A stretch of 32,796 nucleotides of DNA from a virus. The first letter of the stretch is position 1, and each line of letters opens with the position of its first letter. The position numbers and the translations under genes are program-made. The notes beneath the pieces were generated by a model. The model saw only the letters and a program-made list of their open reading frames with translations, ran no database searches and was not told the origin of the DNA. The stretch covers positions 1,874 through 34,669 of IMG/VR virus record IMGVR_UViG_3300030103_004682, one strand, 5' to 3'. This document shows, in pieces, positions 18,084 to 31,938 of the stretch.

Positions 18084-18791
18084 TTACGTTAAGTTTATAG
18101 TGTAAGTATAAGTTGCGCCAGTCGGCGAGATATATTTAGCGTTAAGAGCCTTACCAATATAACTTGTTGGCAAACCACCGTTAGTATCGTCAAATCCCCA
18201 AGTAAGTTGAAATTGATCGTTATTTGCTGCGGTGGCGTAAGTGCCCTGAGTTCTTTGTGTTGCATCAATTTGATTTGATGTAGTAGAAATAGAACCGCTT
18301 CCTGCGTTTACTAAACCTACTCTACTGGTCACAGCAGCGTCTTCGGTGGCTCCAGTAACCCAACAAGCAAAAGTTTCTGTGCCGCCACCAAACCCAGAAC
18401 ATCCAGCTAAACTAATGGCTAACCCTCTCCCAGCAGCCGTGTTAAACGTAAAAGTAAAACTGCCGGCACTATAACCGCTCAGGGCATCAGAATAATTTCC
18501 AAAGTTTTGTGTGTTGTAGCCGTCTGTTATACGACCAGCTATATATTTTTGTAGTACCGAGCCTCCCATCCAACTTGGATTAAAAGTAACAGTAGCGTAT
18601 TTAGACCTACCATAAAACTGCGACATAGATATTTGCGAACCGCTTGAAACCACTCCGCCTAATTTACGGAAAGCAGCTTCGTTCATGTCTCTAGCTGCTG
18701 TAGCCGAAGCGTCTAGTTCTAAATTAATTGATTGTCCTGCGGTGGATCCACCAAGGGATATAGGACCTGAACTATTAAGTTGGTCGCTCAT
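18084..18791 (-). CDS. Fibre/adhesin-type virion protein (235 aa)
   Basis: The last protein of the fibre operon. The N-terminus SSGPISLGGSTAGQSINLEL and the following AAFRKLGGVVSSGSQISMSQ with FYGRS are patterns I recall at the start of many marine phage adhesin or tail proteins. The C-terminal part is a beta-rich, Gly/Ser/Thr-rich domain (GSFTFTFNTAAGRGLAISL, WGFDDTNGGL). It probably forms a surface-exposed receptor-binding or decoration protein. It begins in a 4-nt overlap with the upstream S74 fibre gene. Confidence 0.75.
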   Translation of the reverse strand: MSDQLNSSGPISLGGSTAGQSINLELDASATAARDMNEAAFRKLGGVVSSGSQISMSQFYGRSKYATVTFNPSWMGGSVLQKYIAGRITDGYNTQNFGNYSDALSGYSAGSFTFTFNTAAGRGLAISLAGCSGFGGGTETFACWVTGATEDAAVTSRVGLVNAGSGSISTTSNQIDATQRTQGTYATAANNDQFQLTWGFDDTNGGLPTSYIGKALNAKYISPTGATYTYTINLT

Positions 18792-19753
18792 TTTTTAAGT
18801 TCTTCTATTTCTGCTTTTAGTTCCTTGATGCCTTCGATTAACAAAGGCACTAGTTGTTCGTATCTGACTGCTTTTGTGCCGTCAGGTCTAGTTGCGCAAG
18901 CCTCTGGCAAAATAGCTTCTATCTCTTGAGCGACTACGCCTACATCAGACTTACGGACAAAGTAATCGTCTTCGCCGCCTCTTTCTTTTACAACTTCATC
19001 TTTCCAATCAAAATTGTAACCAGAGATGGCTTGTATTTTTTCTATTGAGTTTTCTATCGGATTTAAGTTTTCTTTTAAACCTATGTCCGAAGAATAGTAA
19101 GCTGTAATGTTATTAGTGGCTCTTATTTCACCAGTTGTTGCTGAAGCTGTGGTTCCTACCCCAATGCTTTTTGCAAAAGTCACGGCTCCGCCGTCTGCTA
19201 TAGTCATGGCATCATCACCATCTGTGTACTCTATTAAAGGTGTTTTTACGCTTGTTGATGCAATTACAGCATCTGCTGTAAGTGATGATGTTATCGTCAT
19301 GTTAGTAGCTGTTGGTGTTCCGCCTAATGCTACATCTTGAAAAGCATCCACTACAGAGGCACCCGATCCTGCTCCGTCTGAATACACTACTTTAACAGCG
19401 TCCGCAGCTATGGTTACCGTAGTTCCTGATCCTTGTTTAATAATTATGTTTTGCGATCCGCTTGTTGCGTTTTCAATAATCCAAACTTTTGAAACGGTGT
19501 TGGGCCCAAGAGTGATGGTGCAGGCAGAATCTAGTGTGCCTGTATATTTTAAATATAAGGATCTGCCGGGGTCAGTAGCACCATCAGCTATAGTTGTTGT
19601 GTGCGTATCAGCGTTTGTTGTTATGGCTTCTGTGCCGTAGCTAAACGCTTCTGCTATAAGTTCTAAATTAGTGTTGGTAGACGTACCCCAAGTACCTGAC
19701 TCATCACCTGTGGCTATTTCTTTTAGCCTTAAATCATTTACATACGTTGCCAT
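18788..19753 (-). CDS. Tail fibre with C-terminal self-cleaving S74 chaperone (321 aa)
   Basis: The N-terminal part (YVNDLRLKEIATGDESGTWG) matches the start of many marine phage fibre proteins. The middle is beta-rich (LYLKYTGTLDSACTITLGPN). From about residue 216 it is a Peptidase_S74 intramolecular chaperone: YYSSDIGLKENLNPIENS with the Ser222-Lys227 dyad (five residues apart, as in endosialidase tailspikes), then SGYNFDWK, VGVVAQEIEAILPEA, VRYEQLVPLLIEGIKEL and a terminal coiled coil. The chaperone trimerises the fibre, then cleaves itself off. It starts 1 nt after the 304-aa gene. Confidence 0.88.
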   Translation of the reverse strand: MATYVNDLRLKEIATGDESGTWGTSTNTNLELIAEAFSYGTEAITTNADTHTTTIADGATDPGRSLYLKYTGTLDSACTITLGPNTVSKVWIIENATSGSQNIIIKQGSGTTVTIAADAVKVVYSDGAGSGASVVDAFQDVALGGTPTATNMTITSSLTADAVIASTSVKTPLIEYTDGDDAMTIADGGAVTFAKSIGVGTTASATTGEIRATNNITAYYSSDIGLKENLNPIENSIEKIQAISGYNFDWKDEVVKERGGEDDYFVRKSDVGVVAQEIEAILPEACATRPDGTKAVRYEQLVPLLIEGIKELKAEIEELKK

Positions 19754-19754
19754 A

Positions 19755-20669
19755 TCATGCTACCTCTTCCCAAGATGGTGTTTGATTCTCATTTATTTCT
19801 GACCAACTCGGAGTTTGTGTGTCTGTAATATTACTATAATTAGGAGTTTGTGTGGTATCAAATTCAAACCAGACTATAAGATTCTCACCCACTTCCCCTG
19901 TAGCGGATACCCCGGCTAACGAAACGTTTGCATCGGCGTTAGGCGTAACCGTGCCAAGAGCGCTGGTTACTGCTTGACCAGTTAAAGTTAAATTAGCTTT
20001 ACCTGTTACTGTAGGTGTGCCGAGTGCGCTAGTTCCAGCTTGACCTGTTACGTTTACGTTGGCTTCTGCATCTACTCCAACAACAGTTACCGACCCTACA
20101 GAAGCAGTTACCGTAGGTAGAGCGACCACAGCTTGTGCGTTTACGCCCGGAGCAGAGAAAGCCGCTGTAGCGCTTTGTCCTGCTGGCGTGACGTTTGCCT
20201 CTGCATCAGTAGCTACCGTGCCTAAAGCAGAAGTGCCTGCTTGACCTGTAACCGTTACGTTAGCTTCCGCATCGAACGTAGGTGTGCCAACAGCTCCTGT
20301 AACTGCTAGTCCTGCAACCCCGATATCTCCACCGGCTACGATAGCTACACCGCCTAGCGCTGATGTTGCTGACTGGCCAGAAGGCGTGACATTTGCTTCA
20401 GCGTCAGTGGTTACGCTTACCGAACCTACTGAACCTGCAAGACTTGGTAGAGTCGCTACGGCCTGTGCGTTAACACCAACACCAGATACCGCTGACGTGC
20501 CCGCTTGACCGCTTGGCGTTACGTTTGCTTCGGCATTTATCGTTACTGGATCTACTTGTGTAGGATCAGGTAAAAGAGCTTGTGCAGATACGCCTGATAG
20601 ATCTACTTGTACGGGGGTTCCACCTAATGACGCAAAAGGCGACTGGGAAAAGGCGGATATACCAAACAT
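19755..20669 (-). CDS. Beta-repeat adhesin/decoration protein (304 aa)
   Basis: Built almost wholly from about ten imperfect 22-residue repeats (residues about 43-265) with consensus DAEANVTVTGQAGTSALGTV. A C-terminal tail holds three TQTP-aromatic units (TQTPNYSNI, TQTPSWSEI, NQTPSWEEV). The repeats are small, acidic and Thr/Ser/Ala-rich, so a beta-solenoid or fibrous stalk is likely (inference). The same repeat style occurs in short form in the 408-aa protein (GVSATASLGSVSVTG, GLASTSSLGTVSVT). It probably forms an extended fibre or surface-display element. No receptor domain is recognised. Confidence 0.75.
   Translation of the reverse strand: MFGISAFSQSPFASLGGTPVQVDLSGVSAQALLPDPTQVDPVTINAEANVTPSGQAGTSAVSGVGVNAQAVATLPSLAGSVGSVSVTTDAEANVTPSGQSATSALGGVAIVAGGDIGVAGLAVTGAVGTPTFDAEANVTVTGQAGTSALGTVATDAEANVTPAGQSATAAFSAPGVNAQAVVALPTVTASVGSVTVVGVDAEANVNVTGQAGTSALGTPTVTGKANLTLTGQAVTSALGTVTPNADANVSLAGVSATGEVGENLIVWFEFDTTQTPNYSNITDTQTPSWSEINENQTPSWEEVA
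19880..20545 (-). repeat. About ten imperfect 66-nt tandem repeats
   Basis: In-frame repeat array of the 304-aa protein with a unit of 21-23 codons. Two variant types alternate: DAEANV...GQ..TSALG and NAQAV..LP....SVGSV. The array could change in length by recombination without breaking the frame. Confidence 0.8.
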
Positions 20670-20670
20670 G

Positions 20671-20886
20671 TTAGATCTCCGCTACGGCTTTAGGTTCTTC
20701 AGTATTTACAGATGCAGTTAGTTGTTGTTCAAAGACAGATAGTGCTGCGTTCACTACATCTGTTTGACGCATAAGGTCTTCTTTTTTCATGCGTAGTTCT
20801 TGTATCTGACTCAACAAGTATTTTTGTTGATCGTTCAAATCAGCTACTTCGTAGTCTTTATCGTTTATGGTAATCGTGTCTGGCAT
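20671..20886 (-). CDS. Small helical protein, DUF6447-like (71 aa)
   Basis: Starts with a short beta motif (TITINDKDYEVADLNDQQ), followed by a long helix (YLLSQIQELRMKKEDLMRQT, NAALSVFEQQL). This is the pattern I recall for DUF6447, a small protein common among cyanophage and pelagiphage tail genes. It may be a fibre-assembly chaperone or adaptor; its place between the 115-aa and 304-aa genes supports this only by context. It overlaps the 115-aa gene by 1 nt. Confidence 0.7.
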   Translation of the reverse strand: MPDTITINDKDYEVADLNDQQKYLLSQIQELRMKKEDLMRQTDVVNAALSVFEQQLTASVNTEEPKAVAEI

Positions 20887-21233
20887 TAACTACCTATTGT
20901 TTTAGTGACAGATGTAGGTGTAATTTTTGCAGCTATCTCAGCATCAAGACTAGCTTTCTTTGCAGTAACTGTATCAGCTCCTAAAGCTGTTTCAACCCAA
21001 CCTTGCACATCACTTGCTGCTAAATCGGCAAAAGCTTTGAAACTTGATAAATCTGAAGTGTCTACTACTTGACTACCGTAAACTTCCGCAGTCCAGTTGT
21101 TACCGTCTGAGTCTTTATTGGTGTCATCAGTAGCTTTTAATCGCCAATGCACGTTGTACACCACATCGGACTTAGAATCTTTTGTTGGATAAGTGTCTAC
21201 GGTACTTACATCCCATGCGTATGATATTGCCAT
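20886..21233 (-). CDS. Small conserved tail-region protein (115 aa)
   Basis: Begins ISYAWDVSTVDTYPTK with VVYNVHWRLKATDD, then NWTAEVYGSQVVDTSDL, and ends in a helical region (VQGWVETALGADTVTAKKAS). This beta-sandwich-then-helix pattern recurs in marine phages next to fibre genes. No enzymatic motif is seen. It is probably a fibre accessory or assembly protein (context). Confidence 0.7.
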   Translation of the reverse strand: MAISYAWDVSTVDTYPTKDSKSDVVYNVHWRLKATDDTNKDSDGNNWTAEVYGSQVVDTSDLSSFKAFADLAASDVQGWVETALGADTVTAKKASLDAEIAAKITPTSVTKTIGS

Positions 21234-21234
21234 T

Positions 21235-22173
21235 TTATTCTCCCTTTAGAGTGTTAATTTCAGATTGTAAGGCTTCAATCTGTTCTTGTTGTTCTTGTAT
21301 TGCTTTGACAAGATATGGTGTAACTTTTCCATAATCCATAGAATACATATCTTCTGCATCTTTATGAACAACACTAGGTATAATTTTATCAACTTCTTGT
21401 GCTATAAAACCTTCATCAGAAACACCAGTTTTTTTCCATGTAAAAGATACTGGATTTAACTCATTAATAACTTCTAGTCCTCTTGCCTTACCTGTAACAT
21501 CTTTAAGAGTTGCATCCGAAGATGTAGCGTAAGTAGTTGCACTCCCGTTGCCGTATATTTGACCAACGATACTGCCATTTACTCTGAACCGCATAAATGT
21601 CCCGCCACCACTATGCGTTTCATCTACGAGTATTCCATAACCAATAGATTGATTAGTTCTTACTTGCAAAGTTTCATCTGAAATAGATGATGTATGGTTC
21701 ATAAGAATTTTTCCCACAGAGGTAATACGCATTTTTTCTGTACCTGCACCTCCACCAGATGAAGTATAAAAGGCTATTATTCCATCTTCTCCACCTGCTG
21801 TTTGATCAACACTAGTGAAAGCCATATATGAATTTACGATTGGTTTTGTGCCCCCAGAGTTGACTGTTGCTCCGCCAACTAATCCAGAGTTTGATGCTGA
21901 ACCGATTATCACTCTTGAATTTGTGTTATTTTGTGCAGAAAACTGATTACCCCAATATTGTCTTACTGAACCCCCTGAGTTTGTATCGTAAACATCAGCA
22001 GAAGTTTGTCTTACTAAAAAGTCACCTGTAGAGTTAATTTGTACTCTGTCTGTGCCTGCTGTTTTGATATCTATCTGGTCATCAGTATCAGCCGTAATGG
22101 TTGTATCGCCATCGGCATCAAGAATCATCTCGTTACCGTTTAAATCTATTTGTGAGTTTTTAGTTAATGCCAT
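21235..22173 (-). CDS. Tail fibre with C-terminal S74 chaperone, second copy (312 aa)
   Basis: The N-terminal LTKNSQIDLNGNEMILDADG and DTTITADTDDQIDIKTAG are a stock marine phage fibre opening. The beta-rich centre has GIIAFYTSSGGG and MRITSVGKILMN. From about residue 215 there is an S74 domain: TSSDATLKDVTG with the Ser219-Lys224 dyad, then ELNPVSFTWKK, EGFIAQEVDKIIPSVV, YSMDYGKVTPYLVKAIQEQ and a final coiled coil. It differs from the 321-aa fibre in its shaft, so the phage has two S74 fibres. It starts 1 nt inside the stop of the 92-aa gene. Confidence 0.88.
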   Translation of the reverse strand: MALTKNSQIDLNGNEMILDADGDTTITADTDDQIDIKTAGTDRVQINSTGDFLVRQTSADVYDTNSGGSVRQYWGNQFSAQNNTNSRVIIGSASNSGLVGGATVNSGGTKPIVNSYMAFTSVDQTAGGEDGIIAFYTSSGGGAGTEKMRITSVGKILMNHTSSISDETLQVRTNQSIGYGILVDETHSGGGTFMRFRVNGSIVGQIYGNGSATTYATSSDATLKDVTGKARGLEVINELNPVSFTWKKTGVSDEGFIAQEVDKIIPSVVHKDAEDMYSMDYGKVTPYLVKAIQEQQEQIEALQSEINTLKGE

Positions 22174-22451
22174 TAGAGAGTCTCTTGAGAATCAATTAAT
22201 GTTTCATACGCTGATTTTACTTCACTAGTCCAAGTTGCATTTGCAATCGCTTGAACTCTAGCATCTTCCCCTGATATGTCAGTATCACCCCAAGTGTCGT
22301 CTGTTTTAGTTCTTGGATTTAAAACATGACGATGAAAAGTTCTGTTAAGTTCAGTTCCATCTTCTTTTATTACTGTAGCAGTTCTGACTTGCACTTGACC
22401 CATTTCAAGCACTTCAATTTTATCTACCACTGTTTCTTTTGTTATTGCCAT
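22173..22451 (-). CDS. Small conserved fibre-linked protein (92 aa)
   Basis: MAITKETVVDKIEVLEMGQV and QVRTATVIKEDGTELNRTFH, then RHVLNPRTKTD, and a helical end (VQAIANATWTSEVKSAYETL). I recall this type of protein in cyanophages and pelagiphages beside fibre genes, without a known function. It lies between the 264-aa and 312-aa fibres and may serve one of them as a chaperone (inference). Confidence 0.75.
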   Translation of the reverse strand: MAITKETVVDKIEVLEMGQVQVRTATVIKEDGTELNRTFHRHVLNPRTKTDDTWGDTDISGEDARVQAIANATWTSEVKSAYETLIDSQETL

Positions 22452-22463
22452 AATTATTTCCTC

Positions 22464-23258
22464 TTATACTGCTGCCTCGTAATGTACCTGAAGTATTAAG
22501 TTTATAGTTCTGCCTCCAAACTGACTATTTTTTACTGATAATGAAGAACCAGTAAGAACATGAAAATAGATGTCATCAGCATTGTAGAGCGTTAAAGGAC
22601 TACCAAAACTACTTGTGTTTTCAGCTCCTGAATAGCTTAACGAACCTCCTCCATAATAATTACTGTTATTTACAACATTGTAAGGTAGTCCGCCAATAAC
22701 AAAAACGTTTGAATTGTTAGTAGGGATAAGTTGACTATAAGTATAAGCCATTACATGTCTGCCTACTTTTGTATAAGTAGCAGTTCGAACTATATCTACA
22801 GTGCCTCCATTGGGTAAAGTAGGAGTCCAACTACCCTCTTCATAATCATCTAAGGCATTTGCGGCTGCTGAGTCGCCATTAAATTTTATTCCGTCAGCAT
22901 CTATTCTTACTTCCTCAGTATTACCTACATAAAAAGCGTGTCTGCCTGTGGCATGACCAGAACTATGATATTGAAGATCATATGCTGGACCACTAGTAAA
23001 ACCTTGTCTTGTAGTTCCTGAATTAAATAAATAAAGTTTCAAGGATGCGTCAGTATATCCACTTGAGTAATCATTATTAACTACAATTTTTTTAGGTGTT
23101 GCTGTTGAGTTTTGAGAAGAAGAAGTAGAGCCTGCTGCTATACCTGTTGTGTTAAAACCGATATTTTCATCGCTATCTATGGTCAATGCAGTAGCATTTC
23201 CGCTATCAGAAATAGATGGGGTTGATGATAACTCTATTGGGATTTTAGTATTTGCCAT
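22464..23258 (-). CDS. Fibre/receptor-binding protein (264 aa)
   Basis: The N-terminal ANTKIPIELSSTPSISDSGN and ATALTIDSDENIGFNT are typical fibre leaders of marine phages. The middle repeats the VGNTEEVRIDADGIKFNGD type shaft, and LDDYEEGSWTPTLPNGG marks the start of a C-terminal beta-rich head domain (YTKVGRHVMAYTYSQL, INLILQVHYEAAV). It probably binds the host surface. It has no S74 domain. It starts 1 nt inside the 64-aa stop. Confidence 0.8.
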   Translation of the reverse strand: MANTKIPIELSSTPSISDSGNATALTIDSDENIGFNTTGIAAGSTSSSQNSTATPKKIVVNNDYSSGYTDASLKLYLFNSGTTRQGFTSGPAYDLQYHSSGHATGRHAFYVGNTEEVRIDADGIKFNGDSAAANALDDYEEGSWTPTLPNGGTVDIVRTATYTKVGRHVMAYTYSQLIPTNNSNVFVIGGLPYNVVNNSNYYGGGSLSYSGAENTSSFGSPLTLYNADDIYFHVLTGSSLSVKNSQFGGRTINLILQVHYEAAV

Positions 23259-23452
23259 TAGTCTGCTGCCTCTATTGTGTTACCTTCTTCAACCCAAGCT
23301 AATATAGCTTTATAGTGTCTGTTGCCTTCGTCTTTAGGTATGCTTAATTCAAGTCCATTCATTTTAGCTCTTATGCCTGCCTGTTCATGACCTGTAATAT
23401 TATCTTTGATATATTTAACCCACTCTATTGTAAATTCATTTCTTAACATCAT
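23258..23452 (-). CDS. Small fibre-linked protein (64 aa)
   Basis: MMLRNEFTIEWVKYIKDNIT, then GIRAKMNGLELSIPKDEGNR and HYKAILAWVEEGNTIEAAD. The C-terminal motif (NRHYKAILAWVEEGNTI) is one I recall from small proteins encoded near cyanophage fibres. It overlaps the 395-aa fibre stop by 4 nt (ATGA) and is followed by another fibre. It may be a specific assembly factor (context). Confidence 0.75.
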   Translation of the reverse strand: MMLRNEFTIEWVKYIKDNITGHEQAGIRAKMNGLELSIPKDEGNRHYKAILAWVEEGNTIEAAD

Positions 23453-24636
23453 AGCTCCGCATCAAATTCAAAACCTCCAATCCACATACCTTCTGCATTA
23501 TCTTCATCAGATACGCCATAATCAACTCTAAACGCAGAACAGTTAGGTGTGCCCGCCCAAGTGAATGTATGTAAGTCTGCTGCTCTCCACTCACCACCGC
23601 CTGTCTGTCCGTATGCGGCTAGTTTGGTAGAACCGCCTGTATAACCAGAAACCAAGCTATTTGGAGCATAAGGTGTTGGAGTTGGTCTTGCCCTCATGGT
23701 TACAGGATGCTGATACATATCGTGTGCTTGTCCATCTTCATAATAACTAATTCCTTGATAAAGCCAATAGCCATCTGTGTTATAAGATGCCATTTCATCA
23801 CCGCCTACTCCATGTGTAGCCTTGAAATTATTAGGATATGCTGTGGACAAAAAATACCTTTGACACAAAGCTAAATTTTCTCCACTACTTAAATATTCAA
23901 ATTCAGTAGCAACACTACCAACTTCTAACTGAACTGCGGTAATAGCAAATGTATTGCTTGTGCTAGACATAAAACTACTGAGACCTGCGGCTCTGTTTGC
24001 TGGTGTTTGTGCTGCCCAAGCAGAACTGTTTAGCGTTCCACCTGTGTATTCGCTGCCAGCATGAAGCCATATAGATACATTAAAACTAGCATTAGCATTA
24101 TTATCAAATACTCCTGTCGTATCGGCAGGAAAAGTTAGCACTACTTTTGACCAAGATGAAGTAACTGCGAATGTTTTTGAAATTTGTCTGCTATTATCAA
24201 TATCATAAAGTTCAAGTACATAGGTAGCATTTCCATTTCCTTTAACAAAAAAACTTACAGTAAATTCTTTTGCTCCACTTGTTCCTTTTTTAAATTGTTG
24301 TAAATTTTGCCCCTCTATTTGTTGCAATAAAATAAAATATTCACCTGCTCCTATAGAAGTGTCGGCTGTTGTGCATTCTAATTTTAAACTTGTCCTTACA
24401 TTGCTTTCAGCAGGAGCATCATCAACAACAGCACTCATAGTAGCCCTACCAGAGTTGCTACCGCCTATATCCATCTTCCATCTATCGGCTGTATAGTAAG
24501 TGCTTGCGTTTGCTCCGATACTTGTAACTGATGTTGCCCTTTGTGCAATACTGTAGTCACCATTAATTAAAATGTTTCGTCTGCCGAAAGCTCCAGAGCT
24601 TTCTACCATGCTTGTATCTACTTTAGTTAATGCCAT
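23449..24636 (-). CDS. Tail fibre with carbohydrate-binding-like domain (395 aa)
   Basis: The NILINGDYSIAQRATS motif and TADRWKMDIGG near the N-terminus, followed by a jelly-roll-like domain (FTVSFFVKGNGNATYVLELY, SKVVLTFPADTTG), then TAVQLEVGSVATEFEYLSSG and LALCQRYFLSTAY, are a well-known phage fibre arrangement that ends in a variable receptor-binding head (about 265-395). The central part is CBM-like, so sugar binding is a plausible role (inference). It begins in the TAATG of the 86-aa gene. Confidence 0.85.
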   Translation of the reverse strand: MALTKVDTSMVESSGAFGRRNILINGDYSIAQRATSVTSIGANASTYYTADRWKMDIGGSNSGRATMSAVVDDAPAESNVRTSLKLECTTADTSIGAGEYFILLQQIEGQNLQQFKKGTSGAKEFTVSFFVKGNGNATYVLELYDIDNSRQISKTFAVTSSWSKVVLTFPADTTGVFDNNANASFNVSIWLHAGSEYTGGTLNSSAWAAQTPANRAAGLSSFMSSTSNTFAITAVQLEVGSVATEFEYLSSGENLALCQRYFLSTAYPNNFKATHGVGGDEMASYNTDGYWLYQGISYYEDGQAHDMYQHPVTMRARPTPTPYAPNSLVSGYTGGSTKLAAYGQTGGGEWRAADLHTFTWAGTPNCSAFRVDYGVSDEDNAEGMWIGGFEFDAEL

Positions 24637-24896
24637 TATTCACTCATTTCTTTACTTGGTGGCAATGCTTTTTCTACTAATTTTAGTTCGTAAGCCTGAT
24701 CCACTTGTGCATCTTCACCTGTTGCCATAGCAATACCGTTTTGATTGCAATGCACCATTAGTTTTTGCAAAATTTCTTCTTTAGAATGAATTGCTCTGTT
24801 TTTTGTAACATCTAAAAGCCATTCAGCTATATCTGGTGTAATAGCTTCTAAACATTTTTTTTCTGTGTCTGTAAGAGTTATTGTTATATCTGTCAT
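24636..24896 (-). CDS. Small helical fibre-linked protein (86 aa)
   Basis: MTDITITLTDTEKKCLEAIT, then IAEWLLDVTKNRAIHSKEEI and LQKLMVHCNQNGIAMATGE, ending in a polar tail. This pattern is common in cyanophages next to fibre genes; the N-terminal TDITITLTDTE is the recognisable signature. There is no known function; a chaperone or adaptor role comes from context. It starts 4 nt after the 621-aa fibre. Confidence 0.78.
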   Translation of the reverse strand: MTDITITLTDTEKKCLEAITPDIAEWLLDVTKNRAIHSKEEILQKLMVHCNQNGIAMATGEDAQVDQAYELKLVEKALPPSKEMSE

Positions 24897-24900
24897 AATA

Positions 24901-26766
24901 TTATCCTAATAAATATCCCGAAAAATGAGTCCTTGATCTTGCACCTGAAATAGTGATGCTGGCACTATGGTAAGCATAAAGACGAACTGTGTCAGTTGCT
25001 GCTAATTTTATCATTTGTGTGGTGACAAAAGTATTATCACTATCAAAAGTTGAAGAATTAATAGCGTGCAGACCAAGACCAAAATAACCTTGATTGCTTC
25101 CACTAGGCTGCGCGTTATTCACGAAAAAAGACATGTACGCATAATCTATCGCACCTCCAAAATGAACAGTACCATTGAAAATATAAACTCCTGCTACAGG
25201 AGCAGTAAAAATGCTGCTGGCAAAATCTCCGTTTTGATCGTATTCTTCTGTGTCAAATGTTATATGTGTCCAACCATTTATAGATTGATCGCTAGATTTA
25301 TAAGCATCAAAAGCAGGTTGCAAAGGTTTAGTTACATGACCTGAACCATCAATTTGAAACGTTGTTGTGCCACCATCTTGTACTCTTAATACTTCATTGC
25401 CGCCACCAACTACATTAATTCTAAGTCCTGAATTACCATTAGTTGCAGTCCCTGTAATTACTGGTGCAGCAGAACTAATGTGTAGTTCTGAAGAAGGACT
25501 TGCAGTTCCTAAACCCAAACCTGTTGAGTCTATAATTGCTCGTTCAGTTCCGCCTGTATCAAACCTGATTTTATCTTCGTCAGAACTTTCTTCGACCATG
25601 ACTTTGGTATCACCATCAGCGTCTGATAGTTGCACCGCAGAGTTAATCTGACCGACTGCTATTGATACTACCTCTATTGAAACTCCGTTAGCGGGAGCAG
25701 CAGAAAAGGTTAGAACCGCATTACTAATACTGTAAGTTGCTTTTTCTTGGTAAACACCGCCAACAAAAACTTGCGTGTTGTTTTCGTTAGTAGGAGCAGC
25801 CGACAAACTAAAGGTTGTATCTGAACCGTCACCTGTAAACTCGTCTACTAAAATATTAGACGCTGCTGCGGATATATCCGTAATGGTGGATGTTATGGCT
25901 TCTACGGCTGTACCCGTTGGCGGAGCAGTAGAAAAAGTTAGCGTTTCCCCTGAAATGCTGTAAGTGCTTTTGTTTTGGTAAGTACCGTCTATATAAACTT
26001 GAACTGCATTCTCGCTTGTGGGCGTAACTCCTAACGCTAAAGTTGTATCGCTGTTGTCTCCAGTCATGGTTGCTATAACCATGTTTGATCCTTGCACATT
26101 ATTTAATGCCGAGTAGATTGTAATAACTCTGCCGTTAGCAGGAGCTGTAGAAAAAGTGACGGTTGTTCCTGAGACTGTATAAGTATCATGAGCTTGGAAC
26201 ACACCGTCTATAAATACCATAAGTTGTTGTTCGCCAGATACTGCGTTGGATATAGTGAAAGTAGTGTCACTTCCATCCCCAGCAAAGATATTAGTAACTA
26301 AAAAGTTACCTTCACCAACATTACCCCAAGCAGAGCCTGAGTAACCCTCAAACTTAGACGATGTGGTATTGAATCTTAGATCTCCTGCAACAGGGGAACT
26401 GGCCCTCTGCGCTGTCGTTCCTGTTGGCACGTTAAGAGCTGTATCAAGCTCTCTGATTGTTTTGCCTGCCGGGAGAGTACAGAACACATCTTTTGTGCCT
26501 GCACTAAAATTAACAGCGCTGTCGCTGTTAGAACTAGAAAGGATAGTTGTTCTAGATAACGTGTCTGGGGAGGCATCGGTAACTGTTCCGATACCTACTT
26601 CAAACTCCGCCGTACCTTGGCCTGCAATACAGTAGTAAGTAACGTTACTGTTACCTATACCGGCGACAAAGGTTTCAAAACCGGTAGCCGCACCCGCTAA
26701 ATTTAAGGTGCCTGTACCAGTTGTAGTGGTAGTTTCCTTTACTCTATCGTTAAGGACGAAAGCCAC
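24901..26766 (-). CDS. Long tail fibre with three repeats and C1q-like head (621 aa)
   Basis: Domains in order: the N-terminal virion-attachment type region FVLNDRVKETTTTTGTGTLN (1-150); three repeats of about 68 aa (about 160-366; GDGSDTTFTISNAV, FIDGVFQ, TYTVSGTTVTFSTAPANG); the stock shaft DADGDTKVMVEESSDEDKIR; and a C-terminal jelly roll of C1q/TNF type (about 480-621; QPAFDAYKSSDQ, FDTEEYDQNGDF, FTAPVAGVYIFNG, ending HFSGYLLG). C1q-like heads trimerise and bind ligands, so this is a strong candidate for the main receptor-binding protein. The start is GTG with an ideal Shine-Dalgarno. Confidence 0.88.
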   Translation of the reverse strand: MAFVLNDRVKETTTTTGTGTLNLAGAATGFETFVAGIGNSNVTYYCIAGQGTAEFEVGIGTVTDASPDTLSRTTILSSSNSDSAVNFSAGTKDVFCTLPAGKTIRELDTALNVPTGTTAQRASSPVAGDLRFNTTSSKFEGYSGSAWGNVGEGNFLVTNIFAGDGSDTTFTISNAVSGEQQLMVFIDGVFQAHDTYTVSGTTVTFSTAPANGRVITIYSALNNVQGSNMVIATMTGDNSDTTLALGVTPTSENAVQVYIDGTYQNKSTYSISGETLTFSTAPPTGTAVEAITSTITDISAAASNILVDEFTGDGSDTTFSLSAAPTNENNTQVFVGGVYQEKATYSISNAVLTFSAAPANGVSIEVVSIAVGQINSAVQLSDADGDTKVMVEESSDEDKIRFDTGGTERAIIDSTGLGLGTASPSSELHISSAAPVITGTATNGNSGLRINVVGGGNEVLRVQDGGTTTFQIDGSGHVTKPLQPAFDAYKSSDQSINGWTHITFDTEEYDQNGDFASSIFTAPVAGVYIFNGTVHFGGAIDYAYMSFFVNNAQPSGSNQGYFGLGLHAINSSTFDSDNTFVTTQMIKLAATDTVRLYAYHSASITISGARSRTHFSGYLLG

Positions 26767-28908: not shown

Positions 28909-30135
28909 TCAAGGTGTATTTGCTGTCCAGCCCATCGCGCTGTGATTTGTACAATAATAATATAATGTCGGAGCTCCAGAAGCTACCGTTATTTGCGTGT
29001 AAGCTCCTGAGCTACCTGGCGTGCCGTTTGTTAAAACTCCTGTTGTGTACTCAGATCCACCTCCGTGTGTTCCATTCGCTGTCGTAGAGAAGCGCAAAGG
29101 ATGTCCAGAATTACTAGAATCACTTTGATCAAACTTATATGTGCCGCCCTCAGATAAGCTTAAAGTTACGTCTGCTGTAGCAGTAGAGCCGTCTATTGCA
29201 AATTTATTTGTTGATCCTACGTTGTAGTATGGATGGTTATAAGGGTTACCGCTTACTACAGTAACTGCATAAGTTGCATCGATTGTATAGGCAGTCCACC
29301 CCATACCTGAATGATTTGTGCAATAGTAGTAAAGTGTTGGCGCTCCAGAGGCTACTGTAATTTCTGTATAAGCTCCAGAGCTGCCCGGAGTACCTACGGT
29401 GGTGACTCCAGTAGTGTATTCCGAACCTCCAGAATGTGTTCCGTTTGCGGTAGTGCTGAAACGTAATGGATGTCCGCTGTTTGAAGAATCGCTTTGATCA
29501 AATCTATAGGTCTGACCTTCTGTTAAATAAAGTGTTACATCAGCTGTTGCTGTTGATCCGTCTATCGCATATTTATTAGATGAACCAAAATTATGATAAG
29601 GATGATTTGATGGATTGCCACCAACTACAGTAACTGTATAAGTTGTAACTGTTTGATTAGTTACAGATACTGTTCCTAAAGATGATGTGCTTGCTAGACC
29701 TGTTACTGTTTCATTTACTGTTGTACCAGTGACAGAAACACTACCTAAAGAAGCTGTGGCGCTAACACCGTCGGGTACAGCTCTATTAGACGGAACGTCT
29801 TCAGATGTTGTGACTTCTCCAACAGAGCCAGTTCCAGATACGCCTTGAAAATTGGTCCCTAAAATATTTTTATCTAGATAATTTGTGCTCGTACTATTTT
29901 TATATGTTACAACAACAAAACCTTCGCCTCCCTCAACATCGTTGTTTGGCCTTGGTTTGTATAAAGCTTCAGGATCTGCCTTTGCCCTTGTTGGCTCTAG
30001 CTGGGGGTGCTTGTTTTCATAACAAGAGGGACAAGTTTTTGCGCCGTTCCATTCTTCCTTTAGTTCATTAAGCTTGTATTCAAAACCGCAGCGATCACAT
30101 AAAGCTCTAGCAAACTTCCCAGTTGCATAAGCCAT
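28909..30135 (-). CDS. Zinc-ribbon virion protein with tandem cupredoxin-like domains (408 aa)
   Basis: Three parts. (1) A zinc ribbon: Cys13, Cys16, Cys35, Cys38 (CDRCGFEYKLNE ... CPSCYENKHP), followed by ADPEALYKPRP. (2) A short stretch with beta repeats (GVSATASLGSVSVTG). (3) Two copies of a 123-residue-period beta domain (about 166-284 and 289-405). Each has a His in SGHPLRFS (222, 345) and the cluster YYYCTNHS.MGW giving Cys272-His275-Met278 and Cys395-His398-Met401. These fit the His-Cys-His-Met ligands of type-1 copper proteins with amicyanin-like Cys-x2-His-x2-Met spacing. Electron transfer in a virion is not known to me. Cu binding is predicted, not shown. Confidence 0.8.
   Translation of the reverse strand: MAYATGKFARALCDRCGFEYKLNELKEEWNGAKTCPSCYENKHPQLEPTRAKADPEALYKPRPNNDVEGGEGFVVVTYKNSTSTNYLDKNILGTNFQGVSGTGSVGEVTTSEDVPSNRAVPDGVSATASLGSVSVTGTTVNETVTGLASTSSLGTVSVTNQTVTTYTVTVVGGNPSNHPYHNFGSSNKYAIDGSTATADVTLYLTEGQTYRFDQSDSSNSGHPLRFSTTANGTHSGGSEYTTGVTTVGTPGSSGAYTEITVASGAPTLYYYCTNHSGMGWTAYTIDATYAVTVVSGNPYNHPYYNVGSTNKFAIDGSTATADVTLSLSEGGTYKFDQSDSSNSGHPLRFSTTANGTHGGGSEYTTGVLTNGTPGSSGAYTQITVASGAPTLYYYCTNHSAMGWTANTP
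28921..29640 (-). repeat. Tandem cupredoxin-like domain duplication (369-nt period)
   Basis: The two domains of the 408-aa protein are so alike (FDQSDSSNSGHPLRFS and VASGAPTLYYYCTNHS identical in both) that a fairly recent in-frame duplication is likely. Copy boundaries are about 29284-29640 and 28921-29271. Confidence 0.88.
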
Positions 30136-30806: not shown

Positions 30807-30928
30807 TATTTTTTCTTAGTTTTTTTCAAAGATTTTTCTATTTGTTTTGCTTGTTTTGCATGCAATCTTGACGCACCTTTAAGCTCTTTTATTAGTTTTC
30901 TTTTTTGTGCAACTGTTAAATCTGTCAT
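30806..30928 (-). CDS. 40-aa basic peptide with HAKQAK motif
   Basis: A tiny gene joining cassette B to the connector genes: MTDLTVAQKRKLIKELKGAS, then RLHAKQAKQIEKSLKKTKKK. The SRLHAKQAK motif matches the SKLHAGQAK units repeated in the 135-aa protein of cassette A. It has a perfect ATGA overlap with the 226-aa stop and a TAATG overlap with the adaptor start, so it is almost surely translated. It is basic and helical, with no membrane segment. It could bind nucleic acid or act as a small assembly factor (inference). Confidence 0.82.
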   Translation of the reverse strand: MTDLTVAQKRKLIKELKGASRLHAKQAKQIEKSLKKTKKK

Positions 30929-31605
30929 TCGTCTTCCTCCGCGTATAAATTATCAAATATTCTATTGACATCTAAAGTATAGTCTAAATCAGATTTGGAA
31001 TAGTGTATATGAGCTGAAGGTCTAAAATCAGGGGCACCTTGTCCAGTCTCAAACCAAGCAGGGTGAGTAACTCTGACTCTATTATTAGGCAAAGCAACTA
31101 TGTTGCCTGTCCACTCGCCAGCTTCGAGAAGCTGCATCACATGACTTTGCTTATGTTGAGCTGGATCATCAGCAATTTCATTTTCAGCATAATCAACCGT
31201 AAATAAATATTTAGCAGGAAAAAACTGTCCATCTATTTTTGCCATCCAAGGACAAGGAGTAGCTCTATCTATCACATAAACTGAATTATGATGCGAGGAA
31301 CAGTCCCAGGGCTGAGCGTCATGTACAGCCATAGGTTCAGGCCATTCTTCTAATGGTATATCACCGACTAAAGCGGTTATTGGCATTCTTGCCCACATAG
31401 CACCACCATGCACTGTATCTTTTTCTTCTCCTTCAGGTTCTATACCTGTAAAAATAACTTGAAAGCTAAGACACCTTGTTGGCATCGTAGTGATTCCAAC
31501 TGCCATAGCATGCAAAAATTCTCCATGATATTTTTGATGATTGTGAGTGTACTCTCTTCTTACCCAGCATTTGAAATACGGGATATTACTGTATAAATAC
31601 GCCAC
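30925..31605 (-). CDS. Conserved phage protein of unknown function, 226-aa paralogue
   Basis: Paralogue of the 221-aa protein at 12394-13059. It has the same blocks in the same order: YFKCWVRREYTHNH, YHGEFLHAMAVG, CLSFQVIFTGIE, HGGAMWARMPITAL, EWPEPM, AQPWDC, KYLFTVDYAENEIAD, PAQHKQSH, VALPNNRVR and TGQGAPDFRPSAHIH. The GTG start at 31605 abuts the stop of the 110-aa gene. The conserved His/Asp/Cys/Trp set hints at a metal-binding or enzymatic fold, but I cannot name one. Its neighbours are a basic repeat protein and a connector gene. Confidence 0.85.
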   Translation of the reverse strand: MAYLYSNIPYFKCWVRREYTHNHQKYHGEFLHAMAVGITTMPTRCLSFQVIFTGIEPEGEEKDTVHGGAMWARMPITALVGDIPLEEWPEPMAVHDAQPWDCSSHHNSVYVIDRATPCPWMAKIDGQFFPAKYLFTVDYAENEIADDPAQHKQSHVMQLLEAGEWTGNIVALPNNRVRVTHPAWFETGQGAPDFRPSAHIHYSKSDLDYTLDVNRIFDNLYAEEDE

Positions 31606-31938
31606 CTATCTTTTTGAGTTTATATAAGCTCTTCCAAACCCTCTTTTTGCAGCACCAACTGCTGAGTTTTTTCCGCCTCTTTTCACTCCTTTAGATTTTG
31701 CAGGTCCACCTACACTCATGCCTTTGGACTTAACTTTACCGCCGTTTTTCATCCCCTTGGATTTCATAACGCCACCATTTTTCATGCCTTTAGACTTCAT
31801 AGGTCCGCCATTACGCATACCTTTAGATTTTACCTTGCCACCATTTTTCATACCTTTAGATTTTACTTTACCGCCGTTTTTCATGCCTTTAGACTTTACT
31901 TTGCCGCCGTTTGCATAACCTTTAGTTTTTTTATACAT
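31606..31938 (-). CDS. KSKGMKNGG repeat protein (110 aa)
   Basis: Almost entirely 11-residue repeats (KSKGMKNGGKV and variants, seven KSKG units plus a degenerate one). About 34 of 110 residues are Lys/Arg and none is acidic. The C-terminus (VGAAKRGFGRAYINSKR) is not repetitive. The repeat style is shared with the 43-aa protein of cassette A, and each gene precedes its 221/226-aa gene. It may be a disordered, polycationic DNA- or membrane-binding protein packaged in the virion (inference). The start is ATG at 31938. Confidence 0.82.
   Translation of the reverse strand: MYKKTKGYANGGKVKSKGMKNGGKVKSKGMKNGGKVKSKGMRNGGPMKSKGMKNGGVMKSKGMKNGGKVKSKGMSVGGPAKSKGVKRGGKNSAVGAAKRGFGRAYINSKR
31666..31929 (-). 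repeat. Eight imperfect 33-nt tandem repeats
   Basis: In-frame 11-codon units of the 110-aa gene, imperfect in the third positions and in one or two residues (MKNGG, MRNGG, MSVGG, VKRGG). Slippage could change the number without frameshift. These are coding repeats with no spacers, not a CRISPR array. Confidence 0.85.

Follow-up and report, generated by a model that had tools for sequence, protein, structure and literature searches.

Introduction

In cells, blue copper proteins serve as electron carriers and also form domains of oxidases. The described proteins closest to the phage domain reported here are amicyanin, plastocyanin and pseudoazurin (PF00127), with which it shares a Greek-key sandwich, a histidine placed before a strand and a cysteine that ends the penultimate strand. 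It also shares the C-x2-H-x2-M loop spacing of amicyanin, and profile homology to all three proteins is detectable. Unlike them, the phage domain occurs in multidomain virion proteins, in tandem and with a marine phage distribution, it carries an N-terminal insert and long mid-domain loops, and copper has not been shown in it. The purple cupredoxin of Nitrosopumilus (5fc9) is a single-domain cellular protein, again unlike the phage module.

Phages offer three further points of comparison. Cyanophage petE is also a blue copper protein encoded by a phage (PMC3037559, PMC2984593), but it is a free-standing plastocyanin that belongs to photosynthetic electron flow in the infected cell, whereas the module described here is built into virion structural proteins. 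The iron-binding HxH motifs of tail fibres, solved in T4 gp37 and predicted in alterophage R22Y (PMC11705849), likewise place a metal site on a phage tail protein, but they hold iron through paired histidines in trimeric fibres, whereas the module has a copper-type site with a cysteine within a single domain. Ig-like domains are mobile beta-sandwich add-ons in the head, neck and tail genes of tailed phages; the module resembles them as a mobile beta-sandwich add-on, but no Ig-like phage domain is known to have a type-1 metal site.

In the open-access literature that we searched, no report described a type-1-like site recurring as a virion module; what came up instead were papers on auxiliary petE, on phage pmoC and on unrelated subjects. 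No copper-related naming of the module was found in the annotations of the matched phage records or in the BFVD names examined, and it remains possible that automatic superfamily tags exist in other databases. Cupredoxins and cyanophage petE are already known; what appears to be new is the recurrence of a type-1-like site as a module of virions.

Results and discussion

Two cupredoxin-like domains on a virion protein between adaptor genes

The window analysed here is a stretch of 32,796 nucleotides, nearly the whole of a 34,669-base IMG/VR virus record (IMGVR_UViG_3300030103_004682). One of its ORFs encodes a 408-aa protein consisting, in order, of an N-terminal Cx2C..Cx2C module, a Ser/Thr/Gly-rich linker and two tandem domains of about 120 aa (Table 1), with PHROG matches to tail fibre and baseplate wedge families. 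Both domains contain SGHPLRFS and YYYC-x2-H-x2-M, and among the window ORFs of at least 60 aa in all six frames, C-x2-H-x2-M was absent outside this one. The flanking genes encode SU10_adaptor proteins, a class that in SU10 forms a dodecamer linking portal, nozzle and long tail fibres (PMC9509320); neither adaptor had a PDB sequence match at E≤0.01.

The two domains are about 85% identical as proteins, and yet 81 of 119 codons differ between them, 63 synonymously and 18 non-synonymously, so the duplication must be old and the protein under purifying selection. Recent duplication as the cause of ligand identity between the copies is ruled out by the 63 synonymous differences. The original prediction had claimed tandem cupredoxin-like domains with a complete His/Cys/His/Met set, conserved in both copies despite drift elsewhere, and both claims held. 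Two details needed correction: its interval (28921-29640) falls 9 bases short at the C-terminal end of domain 2, and the cysteine lies 50 positions after the first histidine in both copies, so that 49 rather than 50 residues separate them.

Table 1. Features of the 408-aa protein and its flanking genes, in window coordinates.
Feature	Position	Strand	Basis
Virion protein P0001, 408 aa, with tandem cupredoxin-like domains	28909..30135	-	ORF calls; PHROG matches; flanked by two SU10_adaptor proteins
N-terminal module, ~66 aa, Cx2C..Cx2C (C13, C16, C35, C38), phrog_28581	29938..30135	-	PHROG match; C4 motif counts
Cupredoxin-like domain 1, residues 167-287	29275..29637	-	AF2 pLDDT 82.9, pTM 0.80; homologues
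Cupredoxin-like domain 2, residues 290-408	28912..29268	-	AF2 pLDDT 97.9, pTM 0.90; Foldseek; plastocyanin profile match
Domain 1 equatorial His222	29470..29472	-	Sequence; alignment
Domain 1 Cys272-x2-His275-x2-Met278 cluster (CTNHSGM)	29302..29322	-	Sequence
Domain 2 equatorial His345	29101..29103	-	Sequence
Domain 2 Cys395-x2-His398-x2-Met401 cluster (CTNHSAM)	28933..28953	-	Sequence
Adaptor A, SU10_adaptor PF24175	30135..30806	-	Pfam match E 2.4e-11
Adaptor B, SU10_adaptor PF24175	28236..28907	-	Pfam match E 2.3e-20

Elsewhere in the window, a 226-aa protein (30925-31605) matches phrog_3704, labelled 'ferredoxin', at 6e-28 and has no evident ferredoxin cysteine pattern, so this label may be wrong. 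A 110-aa protein (31606-31938) is built of KSKGMKNGG-type repeats. Several short tail-fibre ORFs lie in a row at 18788-26766, one of which (24901-26766) has DUF4183-type repeats and a C1q-like C-terminus.

Predicted fold and structural neighbours

AlphaFold2 modelling of domain 2, based on an alignment of 148 sequences headed by the window domain, gave a confident Greek-key sandwich in which H59 lies just ahead of strand 61-64, C109 closes the penultimate strand (105-109), and H112 and M115 sit in the loop leading to the last strand (116-120). The four residues are thus predicted to occupy the topological positions of a type-1 site, as in amicyanin; this is a statement about the model's topology, and no atomic distances were measured.

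Cupredoxin or multicopper proteins made up 15 of the top 20 Foldseek neighbours of domain 2 in the PDB, the best cupredoxin by TM-score being the Nitrosopumilus protein (prob 1.00, TM 0.54/0.66). These PDB matches were individually weak, with no E-value below 0.01 (nor below 0.001), and Ig V domains were also among the neighbours. A first AlphaFold2 and Foldseek run on a shallow alignment (69 similar sequences) had been ambiguous between Ig and amicyanin, which the deeper 148-sequence alignment largely settled. Direct phmmer comparison of the whole 408-aa protein with the PDB retrieved antibody V regions only, a result superseded by the profiles described below.

The domain also matches two predicted BFVD structures named 'beta-sandwich proteins' (A0A481Z6J5 and A0A481YWX9, from Pithovirus LCPAC302 and Marseillevirus LCMAC201), with TM up to 0.77 and 26% identity; whether they carry the ligands is undetermined. 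The N-terminal insert showed a weak resemblance to ribosomal protein L31B, which we judged to be chance.

Profile homology to blue copper proteins

Homology was clearest through a plastocyanin-like sister form of the domain found in other phages. Searched against the whole PDB, the sister family profile matched copper nitrite reductase (E 4e-7) and amicyanin and plastocyanin (2e-6), as well as auracyanin, pseudoazurin and rusticyanin, and every one of the 60 listed matches was a copper protein with the cupredoxin fold, CuA-type cytochrome oxidase subunits accounting for two. Pfam Copper-bind (PF00127) was matched by 19 of 21 sister family members at E≤0.1, with a best value of 3.9e-8. The window family aligned to the sister family in hhalign at 99.4% (E 6e-22) with the ligands in register, and iterated profile searches merged the two forms, which are one family. 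A mixed profile of 148 sequences, headed by the window domain, reached plastocyanins at E 7e-4, and in the profile alignments the histidine and the C-x2-H-x2-M cluster fall on the copper ligands.

The window protein itself gave no cupredoxin match in Pfam, the PF00127 cut-off not being reached, and only 3 of 85 members of its family matched PF00127 at E≤0.1; the window domain alone is too divergent for Pfam to detect as a cupredoxin. Its best weak Pfam match was to CBM_4_9, below the gathering score (19.4 bits against a cut-off of 25.9). Profile evidence and predicted fold together indicate that each repeat has the cupredoxin fold and shares ancestry with plastocyanin, amicyanin and pseudoazurin, and the amicyanin/plastocyanin ligand pattern named in the original prediction held on both counts.

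The ligands are kept, and lost, as a set

Across the 148-sequence set, with a mean column identity of 38%, nine columns were conserved at ≥90%, namely H59 (invariant), G44, T46, F49, P60, Y107, C109, H112 and M115, which include all four ligands. The full HCHM set was present in 454 of 480 related domains. Free loss of cysteine or methionine was not seen: cysteine was never lost alone in 480-489 aligned domains, and methionine changed only to Gln (10), His (2) or Leu (1) while the H/C/H residues stayed intact; one further copy reads D-C-H-L. An equatorial ligand was lost in 6 of 40 clusters, and all six lacked at least two of H/C/H (permutation p 2.5e-4). These clusters were cut below 60% identity and are not fully independent, and some losses are alignment gaps. 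At one locus (L016), a copy without any of the four ligands lies next to an intact one. The ligands are conserved as a set, and degenerate copies lose the equatorial ligands together. As an internal control, the C4 motif in the N-terminal module of the same protein survives in just 35 of the 138 homologous ORFs, unlike the ligand set; about three quarters of the phrog_28581 homologues lack it, and many have ISDRSG there.

Because the peptide patterns used for retrieval sometimes contained the Cys-His motif, the sampling is biased towards copies that keep it; other domains in those ORFs, which were not used for retrieval, mostly showed the same conservation or had the Gln form. A chance motif is ruled out by the permutation test on ligand loss and by the uniqueness of C-x2-H-x2-M among the window ORFs. 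A disulfide role for the cysteine is disfavoured, as exactly one cysteine occurs in 416 of 435 unique domains and most ORFs are single-domain.

These results bear on two alternatives that give the site little or no metal-specific role. The first, that the domain is an ordinary Ig-like or carbohydrate-binding sandwich without metal whose motif is kept for packing, draws on the weak CBM_4_9 matches and the Ig domains among the Foldseek neighbours, but we consider it very unlikely given the co-conservation of all four ligands, their set-wise loss and the profile homology to blue copper proteins. The second, that a metal, possibly zinc or mixed metals, serves fold stability only, would suit a small sandwich displayed outside the cell and the survival of ligand-less degenerate copies. 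It too seems unlikely, since a C-x2-H-x2-M cluster whose axial residue is Met or Gln is a ligand set for copper and not for zinc, and since the homology is to copper proteins.

Axial variation is also relevant to a redox reading of the site. The axial ligand of stellacyanin is Gln. A Leu axial ligand occurs in fungal laccases (PMC6487685). A redox domain, which would exchange electrons with the host or whose oxidation state would trigger a virion change at infection, could be argued from the complete type-1 ligand set and from the axial Met/Gln/Leu/His variation, which in laccase tunes potential. Against it, virions are extracellular and have no known partner, placement in tandem and in several genes suits display better, and relatives without the domain exist, so that we regard this reading as very unlikely.

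In a separate observation, a cyanophage ORF of about 1,600 aa (L352, L385 and a P-HM1-type ORF, L101:3530-8239) has as many as three divergent cupredoxin domains. The axial residues of those in L352 are Met, Met and Gln, which suggests differently tuned sites within one virion protein.

A mobile module of marine tailed phages

Going beyond the original prediction, our searches show the module to be widespread in marine phages and to move between virion genes. At E≤1e-5 the domain was found in 39 deposited phage records, comprising cyanophages, pelagiphages and Methylophilales phages, and it occurs in at least 594 IMG/VR stretches. The plastocyanin-like sister form occurred in 166 phage records, of which 163 have cyanophage names. 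Cultured phages that carry the module include P-SSM2, P-HM1 and S-TIM5. Only 9 stretches across 84,980 prokaryote genomes contained the domain, seven of which were metagenome-assembled contigs; at least five of the nine also carry the adaptor genes and are therefore probably phage contigs. A plasmid search gave no match. Among records matched at E≤10, 369 of 379 carry marine-type names (cyanophage, Synechococcus, Prochlorococcus, Pelagibacter, Methylophilales and marine-virus records).

The carrier genes vary. Sister form matches lie in gp9 baseplate-fibre connectors, a subtilisin-like protein, a tail spike and tail fibres, with gp9 and the tail fibres being the sites of the module in cyanomyoviruses, whereas in short-tailed relatives it sits on the small neck protein or within or in front of a flanking head-tail adaptor. 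The neck protein and the domain share an ORF in 101 of 138 neck-protein ORFs. At six related loci the domain is inserted within the adaptor B homologue, splitting it cleanly near residue ~100, and in phage 023Pt_psg01 the adaptor A homologue carries it as an N-terminal fusion. This decoration of the neck region via three neighbouring genes suggests that neck display is what selection acts on. Four relatives identified by the adaptor and a 622-aa virion protein (pelagiphages HTVC023P and HTVC027P, Roseobacter phage CRP-901 and phage DSL-LC04) have a middle gene with the N-terminal module and without the cupredoxin domain, which marks the domain as accessory.

Two further loci are worth recording. 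In HTVC027P the adaptor A homologue (L431:3501-4439) has a different, non-cupredoxin insertion of about 85 aa, and adaptors therefore accept varied insert domains. In Synechococcus phage S-CAM4, an ORF with a subtilisin-like match (L424:674-2719; NCBIfam mycosin, 4.6e-12) has an intact plastocyanin-like domain at its C-terminal end.

Location and distribution provide the case for a metal-trojan module, in which copper on neck, baseplate or fibres docks to a copper- or redox-related host surface protein. The module is on fibres, baseplate connectors and neck, it is nearly restricted to marine phages, and an iron counterpart has been published in the HxH sites of T4 gp37 and marine tail fibres. 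Nevertheless, no receptor is known, there are no copper data, and the neck-adjacent position is far from the receptor-binding tip; we therefore hold this explanation to be unlikely.

Proposed role and significance

We favour, with moderate confidence, a copper-stabilised cupredoxin-fold display module with an intact type-1 ligand set. The domain itself, conservation of its ligands as a set, homology to copper proteins, modularity and marine bias are shown, and the fold is predicted by a model, while copper binding and function are inferred. On this reading the module would be a mobile accessory element displayed on marine tailed-phage virions, and in the window phage two copies would hang via the Ser/Thr/Gly-rich linker from the small neck protein between the two adaptor genes. 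Each domain would bind a single copper ion. Loading would probably follow lysis, since phage proteins fold in the host cytoplasm, where copper is scarce, and the metal would lock a rigid, protease-resistant sandwich. Exposed around the tail, the module may then serve for adhesion or as decoration, like the Ig-like domains of other phages.

Copper binding is well supported indirectly, in the absence of copper data, and the adhesion or decoration role is inferred from position only. It is possible that the site instead binds Zn or Cu(I). Electron transfer and copper-guided docking likewise remain possible and are less supported than a decoration or adhesion module. The roles suggested originally, fold support, redox sensing and copper binding at the host surface, remain hypotheses without metal-binding data.

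In well over 150 deposited phage records, tail, baseplate and neck proteins contain this domain without any copper-related annotation, and a conserved type-1 site in virion proteins of cyanophages, pelagiphages and Methylophilales phages lacks an explanation. The finding makes testable the presence of copper in marine virions, its effect on their stability or adsorption, and the contribution of phages to seawater copper speciation. A bolder and, in our judgement, unlikely reading is that marine phages fill a dedicated cupredoxin module of their virions with copper, which then serves at the host surface for docking to a copper or redox receptor or as a redox trigger for infection; if this were true, phage particles would be a copper-binding pool in seawater.
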